DNA of 64,000 nucleotides, taken from NCBI RefSeq assembly GCF_014844035.1, contig NZ_CP062159.1, positions 4,464,001-4,528,000 of the forward strand. The letters run 5' to 3'. Shown here in pieces: positions 1 to 18,500 of this stretch (the stretch's first letter is position 1; every line of letters begins with the position of its first letter). Both the position numbers and the translations under genes were made by a program. The DNA comes from Flavobacterium sp. MDT1-60. Its GTDB lineage: Bacteria > Bacteroidota > Bacteroidia > Flavobacteriales > Flavobacteriaceae. The notes beneath the pieces are model-generated. The model saw nothing but the letters and a program-made list of their open reading frames with translations. It was not told the DNA's origin and made no database searches.

Positions 1-218
1 GATGATGGGACCGCCATTACAAAATAAGCAATATAAAAGGCAAAAGTTACAAAGTAAGCCTGTGAAGAAGAAAGCTCGCAAGCCAATTCAAAAAATGGAA
101 TTAAAGGTCCGTTTAGCCAGGTTACAAATCCGAGAATGAAAAATAATGCGGTCAGAATAACCATCGGAAGAATTGCATTCCTTTTTTCTACTTGTATGAC
201 ATTTTCAATGTTCGACAT
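1..218 (-). CDS. MFS sugar/H+ symporter, FHS family (N-terminal part)
   Basis: The ATG is at 218 on the minus strand and the gene runs off the left edge, so only about 72 residues are visible. After a short polar N-terminus comes a hydrophobic stretch with the signature FFILGFVTWLNGPLIPFF, then a second membrane segment (AYFVTFAFYIAYFVMAVPS). This is the start of the fucose/glucose/galactose:H+ symporter family (FucP/GluP-like) in the inner membrane. It lies downstream of the sugar kinase and nucleotidyltransferase genes on the same strand, 174 bp after the latter. It probably imports the monosaccharide that the kinase then phosphorylates. The actual sugar cannot be read from this fragment. 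Confidence 0.85.
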   Translation of the reverse strand, partial: MSNIENVIQVEKRNAILPMVILTALFFILGFVTWLNGPLIPFFELACELSSSQAYFVTFAFYIAYFVMAVPS

Positions 219-392: not shown

Positions 393-1268
393 CTAAGCTT
401 CCCAGTCAAGCACTGGATAGTATTTTTTAAGGTATTCTTTTACATCTGCAATGTCTTCCTTGGCCGTTAAATCAGGAACGTGCTCAGAAAACGGAATTCC
501 CACAGTTGTATTCGGGTTAGCTTTAACCGAATTTAAAAGCACCGTTGGTAATTCTTTTTCATCTCTTTCCGGATTTACGGGACAATTTTTAAGATGCGTA
601 TACAAAGTGCTTCCGTTGAATTTGAAGGCATTCATACTCACTCTTATCTTTCCTTCTACATCTTTATAATGTTCTAAATCATCAGCTGTAGGTTTTTCTA
701 AAATATCCAATAATTGATTATTTTGATCTAATTTGGCAATCGCAAAACGCGAAATTCTTTCAGACGGAAATTCCAAAGCATCACGATCATAACTAATAAA
801 AGCATTTGGGCTTTGTGTTTCTCTCAGTGCCAATAAAGCTTTCGCCGAATACAAATTATCACTATTACAAACAGAATATTCCTGTGTATTCAATTCAGGA
901 AATTGTTCAACTGCCTGAAATAAAGCATCAGCAGTACCAAAAGGTTTTACTCTTCCTTCAGGAATGTATTGAACAGCAAATGAGATGTTAAGCCCGTGAA
1001 AATTGTTGTTTTCATTATGATTCCCATAAAATTCTTTAAACAACTCTCCTTGCTCTCCTATAATAATATAGATGTTTACATATCCTGCCTTTTTGGCATT
1101 CAATAAAAGATAATCCAGCAAAGGTCTTCCGCTTGCTCCAACGCCAATTAAACCTTTACTTCTTTCATTGGCCTGTGCAATTTCCTCGGGAGATAAATTA
1201 TCTAAAATGGCTTCTTTTTTCATACGAGAGGATGCACCACCCGCAAGAATAACTAAATTGTTGTGCAT
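393..1268 (-). CDS. sugar-1-phosphate nucleotidyltransferase
   Basis: This 291-residue protein opens with NLVILAGGASSRMKK, the nucleotide-binding signature of RmlA/GalU-type nucleotidyltransferases. It has a Rossmann-like NTase core and a central VCNSDNLYS in the place of the usual metal-binding aspartate region. It has no signal peptide and should be cytosolic. The start lies 9 bp downstream of the GHMP kinase stop, so the two are co-transcribed. The expected chemistry is sugar-1-phosphate + NTP to NDP-sugar + PPi, directly after the kinase. The pair looks like a salvage route for a monosaccharide released by the neighbouring hydrolases. The nucleotide and sugar specificities are not evident from sequence. 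Confidence 0.8.
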   Translation of the reverse strand: MHNNLVILAGGASSRMKKEAILDNLSPEEIAQANERSKGLIGVGASGRPLLDYLLLNAKKAGYVNIYIIIGEQGELFKEFYGNHNENNNFHGLNISFAVQYIPEGRVKPFGTADALFQAVEQFPELNTQEYSVCNSDNLYSAKALLALRETQSPNAFISYDRDALEFPSERISRFAIAKLDQNNQLLDILEKPTADDLEHYKDVEGKIRVSMNAFKFNGSTLYTHLKNCPVNPERDEKELPTVLLNSVKANPNTTVGIPFSEHVPDLTAKEDIADVKEYLKKYYPVLDWEA

Positions 1269-1277
1269 ATTTATATC

Positions 1278-2369
1278 TTAAATTTCAATATTTTCAATAA
1301 TTCTTACTCCTGGATCTACGCTAACCGAATAAGCTTCCAGGGCTCCGGCTTTTAAAATAGCGTCGATAACCAAATTTTCTTTTTCAGGATCAGCAATTAC
1401 AACGATACTGCCACCACCACCGGACCCTACAATTTTCGCTCCGTATGCACCTGCACGTAAAGCTGCGTTGATCATATCATCAATTCTTGGCACTGTAATT
1501 TTTAGTAAATCACGCAAAACTTCATGATGCTGATTCATTAATTCACCAATTTTTTTAAGATCTAAAACTGGTTTTTCAAATTCTTTTAAAGCGTCTTTGG
1601 TATAATGATAATTTTTTAAAGCTGCTTCAAAAAACGGAATCAATCGATCCGGCAAACAATTTCTGTATCGGTCAATATCCTCAATTTCAGAAGTATTCAA
1701 ATCAAAATTTGGAAAATTCTGTTTTACAATATCAATTGCCATCAAAGCATTACCTTTTAATTCACCAATTAATCCAATGGTTTCTTTAGGAACACCTGAA
1801 ACTCCGGTAATCAAACCTTTTAAATTGGTTCCGATAATTTTATACGAAAAAGGGTCTTTTGTATTAATATACACAATATTCCCTACTCCAATACTAAAAT
1901 GATCCATCATTCCACCTGGTTCTCCATGTTCTAAAACCTCAGAAGCATATCCTATTTTGGCAATAAATTCTGGAGTTACTTCATCATCAACTCCAAAGGC
2001 CGTAATCAAGAACTGAATCCATGCCATTAATAATGCCGAGGAACTTGATGTTCCCGAATTAATTGGAATATCTCCTGTAATAGTAATATCGTATCCTATT
2101 TTTGGTACACAACCATGTCTGCGTAAAACACGAAGCGATGAAGCAAAATAATCACGAGGTTCCAATTTTTCGAAAGTTGCATCAATATTTATCACACGTT
2201 TTTCATTAATATCAATCATATTAAGAACAAACGTTTTGGTTTGATTTTCCTGAGCAATTAATTTTATATCTCGATTTATAGCACAGGCTATAACGGGTAA
2301 TCCTAAATAATCCTGATGATCTCCAAAGAGGCATGTTCGGCCCGGGGCTAATGAAGTAATTTTTCTCAC
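1278..2369 (-). CDS. GHMP-family sugar kinase
   Basis: This 363-residue kinase has the three GHMP motifs: an N-terminal substrate region (SLAPGRTCLFGDHQDYLG, near residues 6-23), the ATP loop GDIPINSGTSSSSALL (around residue 100), and the C-terminal glycine-rich GAKIVGSGGGGSIVV. GHMP sugar kinases make sugar-1-phosphates (galactokinase, GalNAc kinase, arabino- and glucuronokinases). The following nucleotidyltransferase fits that product. The N-terminal motif differs from canonical GalK (GEHTDYNGG-type), so galactokinase is not assured, and a GalNAc-1-kinase role is a guess from the GH109 gene nearby. The start codon is GTG (2367-2369); no in-frame ATG precedes it before a stop. It is the first gene of a minus-strand operon driven by the operator-promoter module at 2458-2541. 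Confidence 0.8.
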   Translation of the reverse strand: MRKITSLAPGRTCLFGDHQDYLGLPVIACAINRDIKLIAQENQTKTFVLNMIDINEKRVINIDATFEKLEPRDYFASSLRVLRRHGCVPKIGYDITITGDIPINSGTSSSSALLMAWIQFLITAFGVDDEVTPEFIAKIGYASEVLEHGEPGGMMDHFSIGVGNIVYINTKDPFSYKIIGTNLKGLITGVSGVPKETIGLIGELKGNALMAIDIVKQNFPNFDLNTSEIEDIDRYRNCLPDRLIPFFEAALKNYHYTKDALKEFEKPVLDLKKIGELMNQHHEVLRDLLKITVPRIDDMINAALRAGAYGAKIVGSGGGGSIVVIADPEKENLVIDAILKAGALEAYSVSVDPGVRIIENIEI

Positions 2370-2457: not shown

Positions 2458-2491
2458 ACGAAACTATATATTATATTTTTATAAAACAAGA
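2458..2491 (-). promoter_or_regulatory. predicted promoter of the kinase operon
   Basis: Read on the minus strand, this stretch has TTG (plus-strand CAA, 2487-2489) followed by an AT-rich spacer and a TAGTTTCG -7 box (complement of 2459-2466). This is one mismatch from the Bacteroidota consensus TAnnTTTG, with roughly 20 nt spacing. It is nearly identical to the susC promoter at 4789-4819. Predicted transcription starts about 85 nt before the GTG of the kinase. Confidence 0.6.
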
Positions 2492-2504
2492 AAAAAATAA
2501 AAAA

Positions 2505-2541
2505 TGTGCTCGAACACACTAAATAAATGTTCTCGAGCACA
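2505..2541. promoter_or_regulatory. tandem LacI-type operator, copy 1
   Basis: Two 14-bp palindromes with a central TCGA, TGTGCTCGAACACA (2505-2518) and TGTTCTCGAGCACA (2528-2541), are separated by 9 bp, so their centres are 23 bp apart. A central CG is typical of LacI-family sites. The block lies between the leftward kinase promoter and the divergent lacI gene. The LacI-family protein encoded at 2602 is the obvious candidate to bind here, affecting both transcripts. The exact reverse-complement arrangement recurs at 4736-4772. Confidence 0.75.
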
Positions 2542-2562
2542 CAATACAATTCTCCTAAAAAA

Positions 2563-2596
2563 TTTTACTATAATTAAATCAAAGTTTCTATATTTG
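2563..2596 (+). promoter_or_regulatory. predicted promoter of the LacI-family gene
   Basis: A perfect TAnnTTTG box, TATATTTG at 2589-2596, ends only 5 nt before the ATG at 2602. A TTTTA run about 22 nt upstream (from 2563) could serve as the -33 region. If used, the transcript would start at or next to the start codon and be leaderless or nearly so. Confidence 0.5.
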
Positions 2597-2601
2597 CTTA
2601 T

Positions 2602-3642
2602 ATGGATAAAAAGTATACAATTAAGGATATTGCAAAAATGGCCGGAGTTTCTAAAGGAACTGTTGATCGTGTTTTGCATAATAGAGGAAAGGTTTCTCCT
2701 GCTGCATTGGAAAAAATCAATGAAGTTTTAAACGTCATTAATTATGAACCCAACTTAATTGCCCGAAATTTAAAAAATACTAAAGTTTATCGCATTTGTG
2801 TTTTACTTCCAGATCCTGAAATTGACCCTTATTGGCTTCCATGTGTTAACGGGATTCAGGATGCGATAACAGAATTTAAAGCCTATAGTGTTATTATAGA
2901 AACCTATTTTTTTAATCCTGAAAGTACTAAATCGTTTTTAAGTACCAATACTAAAATAATCGAACGATCGCCAGATGCCGTTTTAATTGCTCCTTTATTT
3001 CATAAAGAGACGCTCGAAATTATTAAGCAATACGACGAATTGGAAATTATAGTGAATACTTTCAACAACCAGGTTGAGTCTTCGTCTATTAAAAGTTTTG
3101 TTGGACAAGATTTGTACAAAAGTGGTCGTGTGGCGGCTAGTTTAATGAACCTGATTCTGACGGAGGGACAAATTGCAATAATCCATATTGATGAAAGTCT
3201 TAAAAATGCGGTTCACATGCAGGAGAAAGAAAAAGGATTTAGAAATTATTTTGATGAAAAAAAACTGTCTGATTTTTCTTTAACCACTTTAAAATTAAAA
3301 TACTCCAATATTGAAACTAAGTTTCCGGCATTTATAGAAGAAAACCCAAATTTACGTGGCATTTTCATTACAACTTCTAAAGCCTATCAGATTGCCTCCG
3401 TTTTATCTTCTCTAAAAAATAAAAAGATTGCACTTATTGGTTATGATTTAATTGAGAAAAATGTAAACTTCCTAAATCAGGGATTGGTTCATTTTTTAAT
3501 ACATCAAAATCAAAAGAGACAGGCTTATTTAGGAGTAAGCACCTTAGTGGAGCATTTTTTATTTCGAAAAGAAATACCGGAAACGATTTTGCTTCCAATA
3601 GATATTATTAATGTTGAGAACGCTTCCTTTTATGTATCATAA
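2602..3642 (+). CDS. LacI-family transcriptional regulator
   Basis: This 346-residue regulator begins with a LacI helix-turn-helix (TIKDIAKMAGVSKGTVDRVL, residues about 5-24). The hinge region NYEPNLIARNLK (about 50-62) follows, and then a type I periplasmic-binding-protein-like sensor domain to the C-terminus. It is transcribed divergently from the kinase operon, next to operator copy 1, with copy 2 upstream of susC. It is therefore the likely local regulator of the whole PUL, with a sugar or sugar phosphate as inducer. The operators lie upstream of the -33 boxes rather than over the -7 boxes, which would also allow activation. That is inference. Confidence 0.88.
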   Translation: MDKKYTIKDIAKMAGVSKGTVDRVLHNRGKVSPAALEKINEVLNVINYEPNLIARNLKNTKVYRICVLLPDPEIDPYWLPCVNGIQDAITEFKAYSVIIETYFFNPESTKSFLSTNTKIIERSPDAVLIAPLFHKETLEIIKQYDELEIIVNTFNNQVESSSIKSFVGQDLYKSGRVAASLMNLILTEGQIAIIHIDESLKNAVHMQEKEKGFRNYFDEKKLSDFSLTTLKLKYSNIETKFPAFIEENPNLRGIFITTSKAYQIASVLSSLKNKKIALIGYDLIEKNVNFLNQGLVHFLIHQNQKRQAYLGVSTLVEHFLFRKEIPETILLPIDIINVENASFYVS

Positions 3643-3648
3643 TAAAAT

Positions 3649-3712
3649 TGCTACAAAGACACAAAGGCGCTAAGTTTGTATTTCTTTGTGACTTAGTGGC
3701 TTTCTGGCAAAT
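3649..3712. repeat. CACAAAG/CACTAAG-type intergenic repeat
   Basis: This short stretch has related words in opposite orientations: ACACAAAGGCGCTAAG near 3660-3674 and CTTTGTGACTTAGTGGC near 3684-3700. It can fold into a hairpin between the convergent lacI and CBM9-like genes. It resembles the short intergenic repeats common in flavobacterial genomes and may double as a bidirectional terminator. Confidence 0.45.
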
Positions 3713-3717
3713 TATAA

Positions 3718-4356
3718 CTACTCCATCAAAATAAATTTCCCAAAAGAAGAAGCAATATGAAAATTGGGTTCCGGTGTATTTGGATTTACCCATGAAATCC
3801 AGGTAGGCTGATAGTTTTGATTTTCATCTTTAGAAAATTTAGCTCTATAAACTCCGGTTTCAATAATATTGTTTTGAATTAAATTCAATTCTTTCAAAGA
3901 AGCAATACTGATTGTTCCTCCAACAGTAAAAGAATTCTTCCCTTTTGAAGATTTTACTTCTATATGTTCTTTGGGCCACTTCCAATTAAAATCAAATTCC
4001 TTATTTGGCTTTGCCTCAAAATCCATTATTCTGGCTGCAGTATCCATTTCAAGGCAATAATAAGGATTTAAAGAATCGTTAGCTCTAAAAAACAGTTCTA
4101 CCCGATCTGAGTTTCCTATACTATCAACACTATCATCTTTTTCATCGATATAAATATCAGTATCAAAAACCTGAAAATTAAAATAGAAATTTTCTAAATC
4201 ATGAAGTGCCCGAAATTCAATTTTTGACATTGGATCGTTTTTCCATGGAGAAGAAAAATCAGTTAAACAATTTGCTTTTCCCCAAAAAGAAACATCTAAA
4301 ATTTCGAGATCTTTTTTCTGATTTTCATTAATTAAAACAACCTGATATTCTTTCAC
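3718..4356 (-). CDS. CBM9-like carbohydrate-binding protein
   Basis: This 212-residue protein resembles the family 9 carbohydrate-binding-like domains found alone in Bacteroidota. It has an early FWGKANCLTDFSSPW strand, IEFRALHDLENFYFNFQVFD, then SDRVELFF with CLEMDTAARIMDFE, and a closing WISWVNPNTPEPNFH. No signal peptide is visible, so it may be cytosolic or exported another way. The start is GTG at 4354-4356; the in-frame region upstream reaches a stop without an ATG. It lies between lacI (convergent) and operator copy 2, so it may belong to the same regulon from a leftward promoter that I could not define. Its ligand is unknown. Confidence 0.6.
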   Translation of the reverse strand: MKEYQVVLINENQKKDLEILDVSFWGKANCLTDFSSPWKNDPMSKIEFRALHDLENFYFNFQVFDTDIYIDEKDDSVDSIGNSDRVELFFRANDSLNPYYCLEMDTAARIMDFEAKPNKEFDFNWKWPKEHIEVKSSKGKNSFTVGGTISIASLKELNLIQNNIIETGVYRAKFSKDENQNYQPTWISWVNPNTPEPNFHIASSFGKFILME

Positions 4357-4735
4357 AATTTTGACTTTTAAATTTTATTATTTTCTAATTTTTGAAAAGC
4401 TTAAAATGCCCTGAAATCCGAATTGAAAACAGGTCGTTTTTAACATGACCAATATAGTTCAAAAATCAGGAACAAAATCTCCTTTCCTTAATTAAAATAA
4501 AATCATCGAAAAGCGATTTTCTTACTAAATAAAACAATAAGAAAATCCTGTTTAATTAATATCTATTTAATACCTGTATTGCGAAATTCATAAGATTTTA
4601 CAAAAGCATCAATTATAATTCATCTAAACAGCAATTTCGCATAAAAAAAGACCAAATAAAGAAGTCCCTTTAATTCCAAAAATAATTGTAAAAATCACAT
4701 CATTTAAGTCAAAAAAAACGTTTCGCATAATTTTA
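4357..4735. other. intergenic stretch upstream of operator copy 2
   Basis: No gene is supported. An inverted repeat GATTTTCTTA / TAAGAAAATC flanks a 13-nt loop near 4513-4545. The word TTTCGCATAA occurs twice (about 4631 and 4721), with an inverted relative near 4577. None can be assigned a function. A leftward promoter for the CBM9-like gene should lie here, but no clear TAnnTTTG box was found. Confidence 0.3.
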
Positions 4736-4772
4736 TGTGCTCGAGAACATAAATTTTGTGTGTTCGAGCACA
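4736..4772. promoter_or_regulatory. tandem LacI-type operator, copy 2
   Basis: TGTGCTCGAGAACA (4736-4749) and TGTGTTCGAGCACA (4759-4772) are separated by 9 bp. Each is the exact reverse complement of one half of operator copy 1, in matching order, so this is the same composite operator inverted. It ends 16 bp before the -33 TTG of the susC promoter. That position suits an upstream regulator or activator rather than a simple block of the start site. Confidence 0.75.
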
Positions 4773-4788
4773 TTTTTTGTGTTTTTTC

Positions 4789-4819
4789 TTGTTTTATAAA
4801 AATATAATCTATAGTTTCG
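4789..4819 (+). promoter_or_regulatory. predicted promoter of the susC operon
   Basis: TTG at 4789-4791 and TAGTTTCG at 4812-4819 are separated by 20 nt, matching the Bacteroidota TTG / TAnnTTTG promoter with one mismatch. Transcription would begin near 4825, leaving a leader of about 230 nt before the susC ATG at 5054. The sequence is almost identical to the inverted promoter at 2458-2491. Confidence 0.6.
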
Positions 4820-5053
4820 TCAGACATTAATCTTAAAACTAAGTTAATTCAGTAAAATTTTAGCTGATTTTGAGGCCTTAAAAAAGAATAAAAAAGGACA
4901 AAATAACCCGTTTTGAGATCAAAAAATGAAGTGAATATTTCAAAAGGAAATAAGTCAAATTGAAAAACAAAAATGAATTCCTGAATCAAAAAAGAAATCT
5001 AAAACTTACAATCAAGAAAAACAATTAAACATTAACCAAAACCAATTTTAAGT

Positions 5054-8000
5054 ATGAAATTATTAACCCAAAAAAAGCCAAGAGATTTTCGGATTAACAA
5101 TTTATCCGGAAAAGAAATCAAACTAACCGTTCTTTCGTTATTAGTTTTCACATTTCAAGCTTCTGCGGCTTCAACGATAAATACATCACACAAAAACAAT
5201 ACTGTGTTGTTTTTTGAAAAAACTGTAAAAGGTACTGTAACAGATCAAAACGGGCTGCCGTTACCTGGTGTAAACGTAACAGTTAAAGGCTCTAGTAAAG
5301 GTGTTCAAACTGATGTTGATGGAAGTTTTGCGATTACTGTACCGGATAATGCAACCAAACTTATTGTAACTTACATTGGTATGGAAGATCAGGAAGTTAC
5401 AATATCTGGCGCTCCGCTTAAAATTGTCATGAAAGAAGTAGGGCAAAAATTAGACGAAGTAGTTGTTGGATACGGAAAAGCAAAGAAAAAAGATCTTACC
5501 GGTTCTGTAAGTTCAATTGGAAAAGACAATCTAAACTTAGGCGGTACCGTTTCTAATGTTGGACAAGCTTTACAAGGACGTGCTTCGGGAGTTCAGGTAC
5601 AACAAAACAGTTACGCTCCCGGAACGAGTCCATCAATTGTAATTAGAGGAGGAAACTCAATCAACAACTCTAATGCGCCTTTGTATGTTGTTGATGGTTT
5701 TATTACAAGTACAGGTGCTTCTATTAGTCCAAACGATATCGAAAATATTCAGGTATTAAAAGATGCGTCTTCTACCGCTATCTATGGTGCGAGAGGAGCA
5801 AATGGAGTAATTTTAATTACAACCAAAAAAGGAAAACTAGGAAAAATGCAGGTTGAAGCAGAGATTTCTGATGGTTTTCAAAACATCATTAAAGAACCAT
5901 CTTTGCTAAACGGGCAACAATATGCTGATATTCAAAATACAATTGCAAAAGAAAATGGAAGACCACCTGTTTTCCCGGCAAGTTTTCCAATTGCAAATAC
6001 TAACTGGTTTGACGCAGCAACGCGCCCAGGAGAAGTATTGAACAGAACGCTTACTTTTAGCGGAAGCGATAAAACATCTAAATTTTTTCTTTCCGGAAAC
6101 TACATCAAACAAACCGGAGCCATTGAAAATACTGATTTTGAAAGATATAGCGTGAGAATGGGTGGTGAGAAAAGATTTAATGAAAAATTAAATATGGGTA
6201 CTAATTTTTATGGTGCTTCAAGCGAAGGAAATAACAGCGATTTTGGAGATAATATTTTATCACCAATGTTCTCTGTTCAGACTGCTCCACCTTCTATCCC
6301 AATTTATAATGCTGATGGATCTTACTATAAATATCAAGGAAAGGACAATGCTTTAGCTCTTTTATTGGAGCCTACTGATCACACAATCAACAGATTGGTA
6401 AACGGAAATATGTTCTTAGATTATGAAATTATTAAAGGGCTGACTTACCATTTTGGCGCAGGTGCTGAATGGCAAGAAGTTATTCAGGGAAAATATACAC
6501 CTAGTACATTGGTGGCTGGAGCTGCTTTAAAAGGCTCAGGATCTGAGGAAAACAGAACTTATTTTAGATGGAGTACAGAGCAATATTTGACTTATAAATT
6601 TAATATTAACGAACATGCTATAACAGCAATGATCGGTACTTCGAATCAAAAAGATACTTACGAAAGAGTAAAAGCGGCAGGTACAGGTTTTTCTAACGAT
6701 TTGCTGACTTATTACAATCTTCAGGGTGCAGCGATTAATTTAAAACCGGAAACAGAGAAAACGGAAACTAAATTGACTTCTTATTTTGGAAGGTTAAATT
6801 ATGCTTACAATGATAAATACTTAGCTTCTTTTACTTTAAGAAGAGACGGTTCATCTCGTTTTGGACCAAACAACAGATACGGAATTTTCCCTTCAGGGGC
6901 TGTAGCCTGGAAAATATCTAATGAGCAGTTTATGCAAAATTCAAATACTTTTTCTGAACTTAAATTAAGAGCAAGTTATGGTATTACAGGTGCAGATGGC
7001 ATTGGAGATTATGCTTACATGAACCGATTGACTTCCTGGGGTGTTTCACTTGCTCCTGATAGTTTTGTTCCTGGTACTGAACCGGCCAACTTAGCAAACC
7101 CTAACTTAAAATGGGAACAAACTGCTCAAACAGACATCGGTTTAGACATGGGATTCTTTAATGACCGACTTTCTGCTACTATTGATGTTTACGAAAAAAG
7201 AACTACAGATGCACTTTTAAATGTTCCAGTTGGAGGATGGTGGGGCTTTAGTACTCAAAGAGTTAATTCTGGAGTAATCAAAAACCAGGGAATTGAACTA
7301 GGAATTAGCAGTACTAATTACAGAAATGATAAATTCACCTGGACAACTTCCTTAAATGTTGCTTATAACAAACAAGAAATAGTTTCTCTTTCTGATAATG
7401 TTAAAATCATTAGTACCAATACTTCTAATCCAAGCGGAACTGTTTCCGGACAGGAATTTACAAGATTAGAACCAGGAAAAGAAATGGGAGTTCTTTTTGG
7501 ATATAAATATGCCGGAGTAATAAAAACCGGAGAAACTTATGCTGCTCAGCCATTATCTGTGGCAGGAGATCCAAAATACGAGGATGTTAACGGAGATGGT
7601 AAAATCACTGCTGATGACAGAACTTATTTAGGTAATTCTATACCACATTATATTGCCGGATTTAATAATGATTTTAAATATGGAAATTTTGATCTAAATA
7701 TCTTTTTCCAGGGCGCTTTTGATTATTCAGTATATAATATGACGGCAATGGTTGGTGAATCGTCTACAAGTACAGATGCTTTAAATCGTTGGGTAGTTGG
7801 TACAAATGAAAACACTGATATACCCAGAGATGGATATTACAAAAGTAAATATGGTAGTTATGTGAATTCAAAATTTGTTGAAGAAGCCTCTTACCTACGT
7901 TTTAAAAATGTTTCTATCGGATATTCTATTCCGGAAAGTGTTTTAAAACAAGCCAAATTTATTGACAGTATCAGATTATATGCTATAGGTCAAAATTTAT

Positions 8001-8137
8001 TGACTATCACAGACTATTCTGGAAATGATCCTGAAATAAATGGACACTCAAATAACAATTTAGGAGGAGGAATCGATTTCAACTCATTCCCGGCTTCAAG
8101 AACATTTATCTTGGGAATAAAAGTCGCAATTCACTAA
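5054..8137 (+). CDS. SusC-like TonB-dependent outer-membrane glycan transporter
   Basis: This 1027-residue protein has an N-terminal export signal ending near ...FQASA (about residue 38). A carboxypeptidase-regulatory-like beta-sandwich follows (VKGTVTDQNGLPLPGVNVTVKG, about 58-130). The SusC-type plug start is LDEVVVGYG (about 133), with DASSTAIYGARGANGVILITTKKG at the plug's end. A 22-strand type barrel ends in SRTFILGIKVAIH. It imports oligosaccharides across the outer membrane with the SusD-like lipoprotein 37 bp downstream. It is the first gene of the large PUL operon, with a leader of about 230 nt and operator copy 2 upstream. Length is normal for the family. Confidence 0.96.
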   Translation: MKLLTQKKPRDFRINNLSGKEIKLTVLSLLVFTFQASAASTINTSHKNNTVLFFEKTVKGTVTDQNGLPLPGVNVTVKGSSKGVQTDVDGSFAITVPDNATKLIVTYIGMEDQEVTISGAPLKIVMKEVGQKLDEVVVGYGKAKKKDLTGSVSSIGKDNLNLGGTVSNVGQALQGRASGVQVQQNSYAPGTSPSIVIRGGNSINNSNAPLYVVDGFITSTGASISPNDIENIQVLKDASSTAIYGARGANGVILITTKKGKLGKMQVEAEISDGFQNIIKEPSLLNGQQYADIQNTIAKENGRPPVFPASFPIANTNWFDAATRPGEVLNRTLTFSGSDKTSKFFLSGNYIKQTGAIENTDFERYSVRMGGEKRFNEKLNMGTNFYGASSEGNNSDFGDNILSPMFSVQTAPPSIPIYNADGSYYKYQGKDNALALLLEPTDHTINRLVNGNMFLDYEIIKGLTYHFGAGAEWQEVIQGKYTPSTLVAGAALKGSGSEENRTYFRWSTEQYLTYKFNINEHAITAMIGTSNQKDTYERVKAAGTGFSNDLLTYYNLQGAAINLKPETEKTETKLTSYFGRLNYAYNDKYLASFTLRRDGSSRFGPNNRYGIFPSGAVAWKISNEQFMQNSNTFSELKLRASYGITGADGIGDYAYMNRLTSWGVSLAPDSFVPGTEPANLANPNLKWEQTAQTDIGLDMGFFNDRLSATIDVYEKRTTDALLNVPVGGWWGFSTQRVNSGVIKNQGIELGISSTNYRNDKFTWTTSLNVAYNKQEIVSLSDNVKIISTNTSNPSGTVSGQEFTRLEPGKEMGVLFGYKYAGVIKTGETYAAQPLSVAGDPKYEDVNGDGKITADDRTYLGNSIPHYIAGFNNDFKYGNFDLNIFFQGAFDYSVYNMTAMVGESSTSTDALNRWVVGTNENTDIPRDGYYKSKYGSYVNSKFVEEASYLRFKNVSIGYSIPESVLKQAKFIDSIRLYAIGQNLLTITDYSGNDPEINGHSNNNLGGGIDFNSFPASRTFILGIKVAIH

Positions 8138-8174: not shown

Positions 8175-9686
8175 ATGAAAAAATATACATTATTATTACT
8201 TATACTTACCGCCGGAGCACAATTTTCGTGCAACCAGGATCTTGATCCAACGGTCTATAGTAGTTTGACGAATACCAACGGGTATCAAACAAAGTCAGAT
8301 GCTATGGCAGCCGTTAATTCTATTTACGGCAGATTAAAAGGACCTTCGGTTACCGATAACTTCTCTTATTGGGCAACACGACATTTTGCTTTGACTGATA
8401 TTGCAACAGATTTAGGACATTGCCAATTTGGCGGAGATCCTGGACAATTGTCATTAGGAACGTGGAATTCCAGTAATGGATTACTAAAAGAAGATTGGCT
8501 TGCCATGTATAAGTTGATTGCCAACGCCAATAGTGCTATTTTCAATATTGTACCAATGTCTGGAATTACAGCAGCAGAAAAAGCACAATTTATAGCTGAA
8601 GCCAAATTTTTAAGAGCATCTGCTTATATGGATTTAACAGATTCATGGGGACCAGTAGTTTTAATTACAGAAGCTAACTTAGGTAATCCAGGTTATTTGG
8701 ATCAGACTCCGCCTTCATCTGTAGAAGAAATTGATGCATTTTTGGTTAAAGAATTGACTGAAGCTGCTGATGTATTACCGGTTAATTATAAAAATAATGC
8801 TATTTATGGTACTAATGATGTAGGACGCGCCACAAAAGGTGCTGCACTTACTTTAATGGCAAAATTATATTTACGCAGTCACGATTGGCAAAAAGTAGTT
8901 GCGCTTACACAACAGGTAATGAACCTAAACGAATACAGCCTTTATCCTTCTTACTTAGGATTGTTTAAAGAAAGTAACAAATGGTGTAATGAAAATATTT
9001 TTTCTTCCTTAAGTGATGCCAATACAAACGGAACTGAATTATTAAACCACTTTGGACCAGTTGATCACCCGGTTGTTCAAAACAGATGGCAGTATTATAC
9101 GGTAAACTGGGATTTCTACAATACTTTTGGAAATGAAGATGAGAGAAAAGAATGCTTCTTTCCTGAATATAAAGGCGTTGATGGTCTATTACACAAACAA
9201 GCACCTTCATTGGGTGCCGAGCCACCTGCAGGCGAATTTTACATGCAAGATGTATCGACAAGAAAATATGCTGATGATGAAACTACAACCTATTATGATG
9301 GTCATAGTGTAAACATTCTTCGTTATGCTGATGTATTATTAAGCAGAGCTGAAGCTTTAAATGAAATCAGCGGCCCAACCACTGAGGCTATCAATCTTAT
9401 CAATCAGGTTAAAGGAAGATCGCATGCTAAATTATTAGTTTTAGCTAATTACACTCAGGCTACTTTAAGAGATGCAATTTTGCAGGAAAGAGGATGGGAA
9501 TTTTTCTATGAAGGAAAACGTCGTGCTGATTTGATCAGAATGAACAAATATGATGTTTTGGTAAATGCTTATCATCTTAGAGTTGGTGAAGCTGCATTAA
9601 TCAAAATACCTCAAAATAAATATTACACATACCCACAAAGTCAGGTTGATCTTAACCCAAAATTAAGTAACGCTGACAGACAATAA
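8175..9686 (+). CDS. SusD-like surface glycan-binding lipoprotein
   Basis: This 503-residue protein has a lipoprotein signal with the lipidated cysteine at residue 19 (GAQFSC). The N-terminal SusD segment follows, with ATRHFALTDIATD and FIAEAKFLRASAYMDL. The typical C-terminal block is ILRYADVLLSRAEALNEISG, ILQERGWEFFYEGKRRADLIRMNKY and IPQNKYYTYPQ. It binds glycan at the cell surface and caps the SusC channel. It is 37 bp after susC and is followed by a hairpin that probably lowers expression of the downstream genes. Confidence 0.96.
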   Translation: MKKYTLLLLILTAGAQFSCNQDLDPTVYSSLTNTNGYQTKSDAMAAVNSIYGRLKGPSVTDNFSYWATRHFALTDIATDLGHCQFGGDPGQLSLGTWNSSNGLLKEDWLAMYKLIANANSAIFNIVPMSGITAAEKAQFIAEAKFLRASAYMDLTDSWGPVVLITEANLGNPGYLDQTPPSSVEEIDAFLVKELTEAADVLPVNYKNNAIYGTNDVGRATKGAALTLMAKLYLRSHDWQKVVALTQQVMNLNEYSLYPSYLGLFKESNKWCNENIFSSLSDANTNGTELLNHFGPVDHPVVQNRWQYYTVNWDFYNTFGNEDERKECFFPEYKGVDGLLHKQAPSLGAEPPAGEFYMQDVSTRKYADDETTTYYDGHSVNILRYADVLLSRAEALNEISGPTTEAINLINQVKGRSHAKLLVLANYTQATLRDAILQERGWEFFYEGKRRADLIRMNKYDVLVNAYHLRVGEAALIKIPQNKYYTYPQSQVDLNPKLSNADRQ

Positions 9687-15200: not shown

Positions 15201-15297
15201 TCCTGAAGTTGCTAATTTTCAACCAGCGCAAACTTTTACTGTAAAAGACGAATTGCCTGTAAGTAAAGGAAAAGGATGGTTGTTAATTATTAAATAA
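12292..15297 (+). CDS. large putative glycosidase (DUF6067 / GH123-N-like)
   Basis: This 1001-residue secreted protein has a signal peptide ending near IPLAAQ (about 29). Its N-terminal beta-sandwich region includes the VVEFTGKDNVAKTTIEWRRRD strand. A central domain holds WDVAHKNQDGAWIGNVNSGLQF. A C-terminal TIM-barrel-like segment has VNIHHANAINPYINYPF, GLKVKIYNTVREVS, GIDGIYLDDVAFDR (about 772-785) and EMLQDGGNPWRGMVYGM. The YLDD and nearby acidic residues look like a retaining or neighbouring-group-assisted glycosidase site. It resembles the DUF6067 group, which I associate tentatively with the GH123 N-terminal domain (beta-GalNAcase). No substrate can be read directly. It is co-directional in the PUL. 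Confidence 0.6.
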   Translation: MKLNLKNRQTLNRILIICLCIFSIPLAAQIKYTDGNDSWNPNLLGNHRVVVEFTGKDNVAKTTIEWRRRDENPELKRIIVQDANGKEIPNTKTENINRENGTIYFEPVSGKGTYYVYYMPYIDEGDANYPKGVYAKPENKADAAWLSKIKTNLKDNCTVSEIQSVNSFNSFYPMEVIATAAETKDIIAKNSGNSFLIFPEDRLYSIRMKNDLPQRWIQKGVQNSFADTAMKGEYLAFQLGVYALENLSNVKVQFSDLKNETGAVIEAKNINCINTDGVRYDQSIFAATVSVLKGKVQAMWCGVDVLETAAAGTYTGKATVIADGKSKEITLQIKVTNEVTKNGGIDSPEKMTRLKWLNSTLAQGNTVISPYTPLTVKGSEISLLGRKLILGTDGFPAQIQTFFTPEMTVIGTKANAILSAPIAFHFVDASGKESLQWKNTGVKFLKKEAGTIAWESVSTSKSLQMDVNASIEFDGFVHYTVKITALEDASFTDINIHLPMQSSSAKYMMGLGQKGGNRPENFDWKWDVAHKNQDGAWIGNVNSGLQFSLRDEKYSRPLNTNFYLQKPLLLPTSWGNENKGGISITPNQKSVLVNAYSGARSMKKGDVLYYNFNLLITPFRTIDTDFQWNTKFYHKYSPIDSIAQTGATVVNIHHANAINPYINYPFIEYKKMKTYIDEAHEKGLKVKIYNTVREVSNKAYETFALKSLGHEIYSPGKGGGFSWLQEHVGDDYIAAWFVPEIKDAAIVNSGMNRWHNYYVEGMNWLTQNVGIDGIYLDDVAFDRITMKRIKRVLTKDGHPGIIDLHSANQYNKSDGFNNSANLYMEHFPYINKLWFGEYFDYEKNQPDFFLTEVSGIPFGLMGEMLQDGGNPWRGMVYGMTNRMPWSHNADPRPIWKLWDTFGIKGSKMIGYWSENCPVRTNNDKVLATVYKKNGSTLISIASWADTDVKVKLSIDWKKLGIDPSKATITAPEVANFQPAQTFTVKDELPVSKGKGWLLIIK

Positions 15298-15303
15298 GTT
15301 AAA

Positions 15304-15489
15304 GCTCCGGCGGAGCGTCATATTTATAGCCAAATTATATGGTTTTGTAAAAAGCTCCAGCGGAGCGGCATATTTATAGCCTCCAGCGGAGCGGCATTAC
15401 AATTTCAATTATCAAATAAATGTCACCCCGATGGGGTTCGTTTGAAACAAACTATTATCTCTATAAATATAACGTCCCGCCGGGACTTC
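15304..15489. repeat. mini-hairpin repeat array 1
   Basis: Five short hairpins occur in 185 bp: GCTCCGGCGGAGC (15304), GCTCCAGCGGAGC (15354), CTCCAGCGGAG (15381), ACCCCGATGGGGT (15425) and GTCCCGCCGGGAC (15474). The first two are followed by TATTTATAGC, and the last is preceded by CTATAAATATAAC. The array therefore begins and ends with the same outward-to-inward layout. It fills the 227-bp gap between two PUL genes. A similar array follows the GH35 gene. Confidence 0.75.
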
Positions 15490-15524
15490 ATAAAATCTAA
15501 AACCTCAAAAAAATAGCTCTCCAT

Positions 15525-18500
15525 ATGAAACTTAAACCTTTCCTATCTATTTTACTCTTTGGAAGCCTCTTTGTCACCGCACAAAATAAACCAACCTTTA
15601 AGGAATATAAAAAAGTCTTTACCACGTATCCTTTTTCCGATCCTGATCCAATTCCGAAACCAGATACAAAAGTGTATCCTTATTTCCGTTTTGATGGTTT
15701 TACAGATAAACCGGTTCAAAAAGAATGGAAAGTAATTGAAATCGAAAACGATTATATCAAACTGATGATTCTTCCTGAAATTGGTGGAAAAGTCTGGTCG
15801 GCTGTTGAAAAATCAACCGGAAAAGATTTTATTTACAACAATCATGTAATCAAATTCAGGGATATCGCTATGCGCGGTCCATGGACAAGTGGCGGTGTTG
15901 AAGGGAATTACGGAATTATCGGCCACACGCCAAATTGCGCGACTCCCGTAGATTATAAAATAATAACCAGAGAAGATGGAAGTATCAGCTGCGTTATTGG
16001 CGTATTAGATTTACTGACGCGTACTTCATGGAAATTAGACATCAATTTACCAAAAGATAAAGCTTATTTTACAACGAATTCATTTTGGTTCAACTCAACT
16101 GAATTTGAACAACCTTATTATACCTGGATGAATACAGGAATTAAGGCATCCCAAAACTTACAATTTATCTACCCGGGACAAAGTTATATTGGACATAATG
16201 GCGAGCATAATTCGTGGCCAATTGACAAAGAAAACGGTAAGGATTTATCCTTTTATAAAAACAATGATTTTGGCGGTTACAAGTCATATCATGTTTTTGG
16301 TAAATACAATGATTTCTTTGGAGGCTATTACCATGACGAAGATTTCGGAATGGGAAGATATGGTAATCACGATGACAAACCCGGTAAAAAAATATGGATA
16401 TGGGGGCTGTCACAGCAAGGCATGATCTGGGAAAAATTATTGACCGACACTGATGGACAATATGTTGAAGTACAAAGCGGAAGATTATTTAATCAGGCGA
16501 GCGAAGGCAGTAATTTAACGCCTTTTAAACAACGCTCTTTTGCACCTTATCAAACAGATGCCTGGACAGAATATTGGTTTCCGGTAAAACAAACTAAAGG
16601 TTTTGTAAAAGCGAATAATTACGGTGCTGTCAATGTTAAAAACGAAAATGGCTGGTTAAAAATCTATTTTTCTCCTCTTCAAAAATTAAATGAAAAATTA
16701 GAAGTTTTTGATAATGGTAAAAAAGTTTATTCTAAAGAAATTACCTTAAATACTTTACAATTATTCAAAGATTCGATTCCCGTTTCTGTTGATTCAAACA
16801 AATTAAAACTGGTTCTTGGCGATAATAAACTGGTTTGGAATTCAGCTCCTGAAGATGGTAATCTGGCCAGACCTTTAGAAGTTCCAAAAGATTTTGATAA
16901 TAATTCGGTTTACGGCTTATATCTGCAGGGAAAAAGCTACATCAGTTTTAAAGATTATATAAAAGCAGAAGAATTCTTAACGGCCTGTCTTAAAAAAGAT
17001 CCCAACTACGCTCCTGTCCTTTCGGATTTGGCTGGGTTGCAAATCAGAAAATTGGAATACAAAGAAGCTGTTGCTACAGCGAGCAAAGCATTATCAATCG
17101 ACACTTATAATCCTGCAGCCAATTATTATTACGGTCTTGCAAATCTTCATTTAGGAAATGTAACGGATGCAAAGGATGGTTTTGATATTGCTGCTGCAAG
17201 TGTTGAATTTCGAAGTTCGGCCTATACTGCGTTGAGTAAAATTTATTTTGCAGAAAACGATGAGACGAAAGCAATTGAATATGCTGAAAAAAGCTTGTTA
17301 AACAATCAGAATAATCTGGAAGGTCTACAATTATTAGCGGTGATCTATCGTCTTCAAAACAAATCTGAAAAAGCAAATTCGCTCTTAGATAAAATTAATG
17401 CTGTTGATCCTCTAAATCATTTTGTTGGTTTTGAAAAATTCCTTTGGAACAATTCAAATGCTTCAAAATTGAATTTCACTTCATTAATTCAAAATGAAAT
17501 GCCGGAGCAGACTTATCTTGAATTAGGTATTTGGTATCAGCATCTGGGCCGTACGGATGAAGCCTTGAAAGTTTTTTCAGTGGCGGCTCCAAGTGCTGAA
17601 ATTATATATTGGAAATCATTTTTAGAAAACAAAGCAGTTGATTTAAGTAAAATTCAACCCGGAATTAGTTTTCCTTTCCGTGGTGAAACGGCCGAAATTC
17701 TTGAAAAACTGATTAAGACGAATGATCAATGGCAATTAAAATACCATTTGGCTTTGATCGAATGGAATCGCAACAACATTTCAAAAGCAAAAGAATTGTT
17801 TTTACAATGTGCATCAAAATCAAATGATCCGGCTTTTTATGCTGCAAAAACTTCCTTATTCAAAGATGATTCTCAATTGGTAATTACAAGCCTTCAACAG
17901 GCAATCAAATTAGATCCTCAAAGTTGGAGATATCCAAAATTATTGGCGGAACATTATATCATCCAAAAACAAAATGATAAAGCATTGGCTACTATCGAGC
18001 CATTCTACAAACATCATACTGAAAATTATGTGGTGGGAATGTTATATGGTAAAACGCTTTTACTGAATAAAAAGTACGCTGAAGCGGATGCCTTTTTAAC
18101 AAAACTAAAAATTCTTCCTTTTGAAGGAGCAACAAGTGGAAGACAATTGTATCATGAAGCCAAACTGATGCAGGCTTTGGCACAAATGAAAAATAAGCAG
18201 TATAAAAAAGCACTTCAATTTATTGGCGAAGCAAAATTATGGCCGGAGAACCTGGGAGTTGGAAAACCATACGATGAAAATATCGATGAAAGACTGGAAA
18301 ACTGGCTGGATTATCAATGTTTTACAAGTCTTGGCCATACTGAAACGGCTAAAAAATCTTTAGAAAAAATCGTTGCATTCAATCCAAAAATTGATAATAC
18401 AGTAATGAACTTCTTACCGGCAAATCAATTGGTTTCGGCCTGGGCTATCGAAAAAACCTCTTCTTCAAAACAAGCAGAAGAATGGCTTAGACATCAGGCA

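Follow-up and report, generated by a model that had tools for sequence, protein, structure and literature searches.

Paired LacI-type operators at a fixed distance from off-consensus promoters suggest upstream activation in a Flavobacterium polysaccharide utilisation locus

Results

Two inverted copies of one operator-promoter module

The stretch analysed here (the window) comprises 64,000 nucleotides of Flavobacterium sp. MDT1-60 (contig NZ_CP062159.1, positions 4,464,001 to 4,528,000 of the forward strand) and holds a SusCD polysaccharide utilisation locus (PUL), in which SusC and SusD are encoded near glycoside hydrolases of families GH123, GH109 and GH35. Two operons of this locus are each preceded by a copy of the same operator-promoter module, and a gene for a LacI-family regulator adjoins the first copy (Table 1). 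An earlier note on this DNA, made from the sequence alone, had described bases 2458-2541 and 4736-4820 as near reverse complements that share two 14-bp TCGA-centred palindromes, a 9-bp spacing and a TTG/TAGTTTCG promoter. Global alignment of the reverse complement of the former with the latter bears this out, with 79 identities over 85 columns, 5 mismatches (three of them within the 9-bp gap between the operators) and 1 gap, and all of these parts are present in either copy. The two intergenic regions reach a local alignment score of 140, whereas 300 Markov-resampled copies of one of them average 27.8 and reach at most 41. The palindromes lie 23 bp apart, centre to centre, and are followed by a T-rich stretch, TTG, N20 and TAGTTTCG; the T-rich stretch, and with it the distance from operator to TTG, is one base longer in the second module (16 bp) than in the first (15 bp) because of the single indel. 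Gene annotation agrees with the note in directing the first module at a kinase-nucleotidyltransferase-transporter operon and the second at susC, and lacI indeed begins 60 bp past operator A2.

Even palindromes with a central CG are typical of LacI-family operators, as are tandem sites with a spacing peak at 22 bp (PMC4052901; the literature is cited throughout from excerpts of each source). The operators described here are of this LacI/GalR kind, at 14 bp compared with the 16-22 bp given there. The promoter box TAGTTTCG differs from the standard Bacteroidetes -7 box TAnnTTTG. Since the six -7 bases are nearly invariant in F. johnsoniae promoters (a set picked by motif search) and G is virtually absent at -10/-9 (PMC6847099), TAGTTTCG is off consensus twice, with two departures from TAHHTTTG. 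The predicted susC leader (4824-5053) would be about 230 nt long, and further regulation there is possible; the mean leader in F. johnsoniae is 33 nt (PMC6847099).

Table 1. Parts of the two modules and adjacent genes in the window. Predicted transcription starts use the box-to-start spacing of 4-5 nt in PMC6847099.
Feature	Position	Strand	Remarks
Operator A1, kinase-operon proximal	2505-2518		TGTGCTCGAACACA; centre at about -57.5 from predicted kinase-operon start
Operator A2, distal	2528-2541		TGTTCTCGAGCACA; centre at about -80.5 (kinase promoter) and -66.5 (lacI)
Operator B1, distal	4736-4749		TGTGCTCGAGAACA; centre at about -81.5
Operator B2, proximal	4759-4772		TGTGTTCGAGCACA; centre at about -58.5
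Predicted kinase-operon promoter	2459-2489	-	TTG 2487-2489, N20, TAGTTTCG 2459-2466; predicted start ~2454
Predicted susC promoter	4789-4819	+	TTG 4789-4791, N20, TAGTTTCG 4812-4819; predicted start ~4824
Predicted lacI -7 box	2589-2596	+	TATATTTG; ends 5 nt before ATG
NagP-like major facilitator superfamily transporter, start only	1-218	-	Below model cut-off; runs leftward beyond the window
Sugar-1-phosphate nucleotidyltransferase-like protein	393-1268	-	PF00483
GHMP-family sugar kinase (galactokinase/mevalonate kinase/GalNAc-kinase-like)	1278-2369	-	
LacI-family regulator, 346 aa	2602-3642	+	PF00356 helix-turn-helix (HTH) and PF13407 Peripla_BP_4
CBM9-like protein between lacI and susC	3718-4356	-	Promoter part of second module directed away
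SusC/RagA TonB-dependent receptor	5054-8137	+	
SusD-family lipoprotein	8175-9686	+	

The module occurs twice in the genome and accompanies lacI in relatives

The genome was searched as one contig of 5,563,897 bases (5.56 Mb). At no more than one mismatch, TGTGYTCGARCACA occurs only at the four operators, which supports a compact regulon, as the earlier note had proposed. A 90-bp module query returns two strong matches (E = 4e-41 and 5e-29), the next having E = 0.019. At two mismatches or fewer there are 21 places against 18 for the reversed pattern, so that the 17 two-mismatch places form no clear excess, and further targets in the organism's own genome were set aside because these sites are near control level. 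The gene for another LacI of this kind (32% identity) lies at G000:C1:2936868-2937869, about 2.5 kb from a two-mismatch site at 2940416. The window scan found no internal operator and none before the window's own DUF3472-GH109-GH35 genes, where the best nearby site matches 11/14 positions, though one relative has a module there.

The earlier note had named many unrelated copies in the genome, or a lack of conservation in relatives, as grounds for abandoning the module; both are contradicted, since it is present in two copies and both the pair and the module recur within the genus and in other genera. The operator pair is found in 88 of 398 genus genomes, with none for the reversed control (individual places of the pair are those among the matches listed), and across the family in 16 of 397 genomes and 11 of 237 genera, two of the 16 being of the same genus. 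A close lacI orthologue (59-100% identity, the window's own included) is present in 31 of 150 sampled genus genomes, and the pair in 28 of these 31 against 0 of the 119 without one (Fisher p = 2e-27, with relatedness and linkage uncorrected). The complete module (operator, 14-18 bp, TTG, 18-22 bp, TANNTTCG) occurs at 58 places in 29 of the 150 genomes, all among the 31 with lacI, and at none in the control. In 29 of the 31 regions operators are found no farther than 700 bp upstream of lacI, and in 25 an operator pair stands downstream of it. These counts come from related genomes and hence do not represent independent events. The nearest LacI among named genomes, 97% identical, is that of Flavobacterium sp. 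Root420 (records from the organism's own genome were possibly left out). F. johnsoniae strain CI04 carries the two modules along with a LacI of 90% identity.

At 7 of the 31 loci the pair precedes a susC merely 32-33% identical to that of the window, and the sequence beyond TTTCGTC differs there, which places the end of the conserved unit at the promoter. Neighbouring operators are spaced by 23 bp in 67 of 82 cases (some genomes counted twice), and the double site is not obligatory, several relatives having single operators (e.g. L164 on the kinase side, L180 and L186; L and G numbers denote loci and genomes). It is scarcely credible that the modules are simply a recent inverted duplication or a repeat element with no regulatory role. 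Two near-identical inverted copies are what such an event would leave, but there are just two copies genome-wide and the susC-side modules lose conservation just past the box. Moreover, among the 24 genomes that carry two modules, similarity is 0.840 between the copies of one genome and barely lower, 0.820, between copies of different genomes (counting one module, in G046, that is truncated at the end of its contig), so the duplication looks old. The same values give only a weak signal of concerted evolution between the copies, and that idea was dropped.

The LacI protein carries an N-terminal LacI HTH domain (PF00356, 55 bits, cut-off 27) and a C-terminal periplasmic-binding-protein-like sugar domain (PF13407, 101 bits, cut-off 35; 3gbv_A, E = 1.5e-39). 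Residues 3-58 align at equal length to residues 2-57 of the lac repressor chain (1cjg), so that L57, which is invariant among the aligned orthologues, falls on L56, the hinge leucine of E. coli LacI. In an alignment of the window LacI with 16 orthologues (61-93% identical to it), HTH residues S17-K18-G19-T20-V21-D22-R23 are invariant in 17/17 sequences while the operator core is unchanged. Because the pair and the module track lacI orthologues in linkage and conservation, the operator stands as the candidate motif for this protein that the earlier note had put forward, and LacI is very probably its binder. The genome encodes at least one further such LacI (32% identity), which would accommodate a different reader of the operators (a LacI paralogue or a Crp-like protein), with lacI a mere neighbour. 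This is improbable, however, because the operator accompanies this lacI in other genera too: all 14 genomes there that have the pair also encode a LacI relative, at 47-60% identity, within a fetched 3-kb locus, and loci of Arenibacter and Zobellia have a single operator between lacI and a different susC. The motif persists in loci of Gelidibacter, Algibacter, Polaribacter, Zobellia and Arenibacter with a LacI of 45-54% identity.

Operators keep a largely constant distance from mostly off-consensus target promoters

We compared the target promoters with lacI's own promoter in 44 loci, namely those of 80 in which an operator lies no more than 600 bp upstream of lacI (L187, with 37% identity and one imperfect site, was left out). 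A target box matching at least 5/6 positions was found in 39 of the 44, always 38-39 bp from the operator (36-41 bp searched), whereas the lacI box, sought in the last 20 nt before the ATG and serving as an internal control, lies anywhere from 19 to 378 bp away. The two boxes also differ in quality: full TAnnTTTG is present in 5/44 target boxes and 41/44 lacI boxes, and TAHHTTTG in 2/44 and 41/44. A consensus box thus stands within the last 20 nt before the lacI ATG in 41 of 44 relatives. In the window, TATATTTG ends so close to the ATG that little or no leader is predicted for the lacI mRNA; leaderless mRNAs make up 5.5% in F. psychrophilum (PMC9723704). At two Polaribacter loci (L165, L167) 19 bp separate an operator from the lacI box TATATTTG, which would be compatible with lacI autorepression, and the opposite flank has a full box at 38-39 bp.

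The distance also emerges from a test of 64 dissimilar operator groups, each requiring at least 13/14 operator matches, from loci L130-L192 (63 of 80; the distant L193-L209 were left out and one group less than 75 bp from a locus end was skipped). In 50 of the 64, one flank or both show a TAnnTT core at 37-40 bp, compared with a mean of 13.2 and a maximum of 24 in 500 shuffles. This version replaced a forward-only test (26/43 against a shuffle mean of 4.7) because some targets are on the opposite strand. Within the 31 genus loci the core lies at 36-41 bp in 59 of 62 groups, the misses being G117 (imperfect site), G046 (contig end) and G092, and only 1 of these 59 has full TAnnTTTG. The operators thus hold a largely fixed helical phase to the promoter. 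They lie wholly upstream of the -33 element in the window, and the 58 module places, within the pattern's own limits, share that layout. For TTG-N19-21-TATMTTTG this genome has 108 places and the reversed pattern 38, an enrichment hardly seen with TATMTTCG (29 against 24), and the TAGTTTCG version falls below its control (11 against 29).

Activators call for just such a combination of constant upstream position and consistently poor promoter, so that activation, left as an option by the earlier note on account of operators upstream of the -33 box, is now favoured. The serious competitor is an upstream repressor released by sugar. It would block RNA polymerase by direct contact, in the manner of GalR at galP1, and/or form a bridge between the modules, which are some 2.2 kb apart. 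Most LacI-family regulators are DNA-bound without ligand and paired operators fit cooperative binding (PMC4052901), and GalR centred at -60.5 represses galP1 (PMC4693257). We nonetheless consider repression unlikely, because the box distance found in 59/62 genus groups leaves -33 uncovered by the operator, and because target promoters are mostly off consensus, which a repressed promoter would not need. Bridging, moreover, cannot be general, since L163, L165, L167 and L169 have a single operator found in a locus of 14-15 kb.

Several observations weigh against activation or soften the evidence for it. Position alone cannot settle the sign of control, because GalR at -60.5 represses galP1 and activates galP2 (PMC4693257), and the rule for CcpA that upstream sites activate has exceptions, such as lev (PMC3463425). 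Fourteen of the 64 operator groups lack a TAnnTT core at 37-40 bp, and 16-19 bp is the next-highest window (18/64 groups against 45/64 at 36-39 bp). In other genera, at L110, L122, L160 and L166 (L113 has the same sequence as L166), the operator lies 17-18 bp from a full target-side TAnnTTTG; this layout would cover -33 and members of the same family may therefore repress there, which also speaks for the repressor. Full TAnnTTTG stands at the activator distance in L161, L165, L167, L171, L172 and L058 (genome G051, a single-operator module), and the lacI orthologue of G105 (67%) has no site at all on its 13.5-kb contig. Finally, the constant spacing may be due in part to common descent.

The ending of TTTCGT in CGT raises the idea that an extracytoplasmic function (ECF) sigma factor reads the promoter part, with the operators as a second layer. 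A CGT box is known from F. psychrophilum SM6 promoters (PMC9723704), and a T directly follows the box in both window modules. There is no constant CGT, however, since the corresponding box reads TACTTTAG, TAGTTTTG, TAATTTCA or TACATTTG in other genera and in part of Flavobacterium, and this makes an ECF factor highly improbable.

Genes under the modules and further arrangements of the operator

Matches to the kinase in the PDB list include mevalonate kinase, galactokinase and an N-acetylgalactosamine (GalNAc) kinase (2a2c, E = 5e-19); on the strength of this resemblance GalNAc is a fair guess for its substrate. A NagB-like gene follows the NagP-like transporter just outside the window. Beyond susCD come genes for an ASST-like protein, a c-type cytochrome, GH123, a DUF5107-tetratricopeptide repeat (TPR) protein, an M1 peptidase, DUF3472, GH109 and GH35. 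The AT-rich intergenic region before the DUF5107-TPR gene holds GC-rich inverted repeats (15297-15530; GCTCCGGCGGAGC, GCTCCAGCGGAGC and others) that resemble dispersed intergenic hairpin repeats.

Twelve regions with further modules were fetched from other genus genomes, and ten proteins from five of them were scanned. Modules precede DUF3472-GH109-GH35 genes in L210 (scanned), L212 and L218 (judged from gene lengths alone); a second susC with DUF3472 and GH109 after it in L211 (scanned), L213-L216 and L221 (likewise judged from lengths); an APH-type kinase and then GH35 in L217; and genes for DUF3472-ricin-lectin proteins in L219 and L220. This suggests a Gal/GalNAc-type glycan as the common theme of the module-linked operons.

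Other arrangements were also seen. Three-operator arrays with a 22-23 bp period lie beside lacI in L074 (G094), L151, L171 and L172, and four operators in L175. At about 12372-12408 of L151 each flank of a single operator pair has a TAnnTTCG box at 39 bp, and the pair seemingly serves two divergent promoters. Seven Bacteroides loci (L199, L202, L203, L205-L208) with LacI relatives of 34-36% identity have the site CGTTATCGAACACA 95-162 bp upstream of lacI, possibly a diverged form of the same operator.

Discussion

Accounts of PUL control in Bacteroidota usually centre on hybrid two-component systems, SusR, or pairs of ECF and anti-sigma factors. For the locus described here we favour, with a probability of roughly 0.62, a module through which LacI acts as a position-fixed activator. 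Each module would present a pair of LacI-dimer operators 23 bp (about two helical turns) apart, followed by a promoter whose -33 TTG begins 15-16 bp beyond the proximal operator. We infer that the LacI encoded at 2602-3642 binds both modules and would thereby jointly control susCD and the kinase-nucleotidyltransferase-NagP-like-NagB operon. From its position immediately before -33, the protein would most likely aid RNA polymerase at promoters whose -7 box is presumably too poor to work well alone. The activating signal would be a glycan-derived sugar; an amino sugar is probable, for instance GalNAc or a phosphate of it.

In its layout the system looks like that of an upstream-acting LacI-family activator. 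CcpA, also of this family, generally activates from sites upstream of -35, e.g. at B. subtilis ackA, pta and ilvB, and its palindromic site just upstream of the promoter and reported dependence on the helix face resemble the arrangement here (PMC3463425). CcpA, however, is global and works with HPr-Ser-P, whereas this regulator is encoded locally beside its operons, has paired operators and a Bacteroidetes -33/-7 promoter, and is predicted to activate. GalR, a sugar regulator of the same family, represses galP1 by contact from OE of the E. coli gal operon and activates galP2, 5 bp away; the centre of OE lies 2-3 bp from those of the proximal operators here (PMC4693257). The gal system pairs one upstream with one internal operator, though, compared with two adjacent upstream operators in the window. 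The double-site regulogs of RafR (Enterobacteriales) and ScrR (Burkholderiales) share tandem operators about two turns apart (PMC4052901) but differ in that spacing here is mostly 23 bp and relatives have single-operator modules. KdgR, UxaR, UxmR and UxuR of Bacteroides thetaiotaomicron are LacI-family sugar regulators in Bacteroidota predicted by comparative genomics; they are listed for uronate pathways (PMC3878776), and the comparison is at the level of family and pathway. Among the open-access PMC matches listed, and in the LacI passages of PMC12125979, PMC9131120, PMC10766802 and PMC5306329, we saw no Flavobacteriaceae PUL described as activated by a LacI-family protein.

More broadly, and at about even odds, locally encoded LacI-family proteins may serve Flavobacteriaceae as true activators of operons for polysaccharide utilisation. 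A portable cassette, consisting of an operator pair and a deliberately poor promoter at fixed phase, would be placed before different susCD and glycoside hydrolase operons and so enlist them in one amino-sugar regulon. If true, positive control at Bacteroidetes -33/-7 promoters could be studied on a testable model with defined operator, promoter and geometry, and the 14-bp motif would predict members of the regulon across genera.

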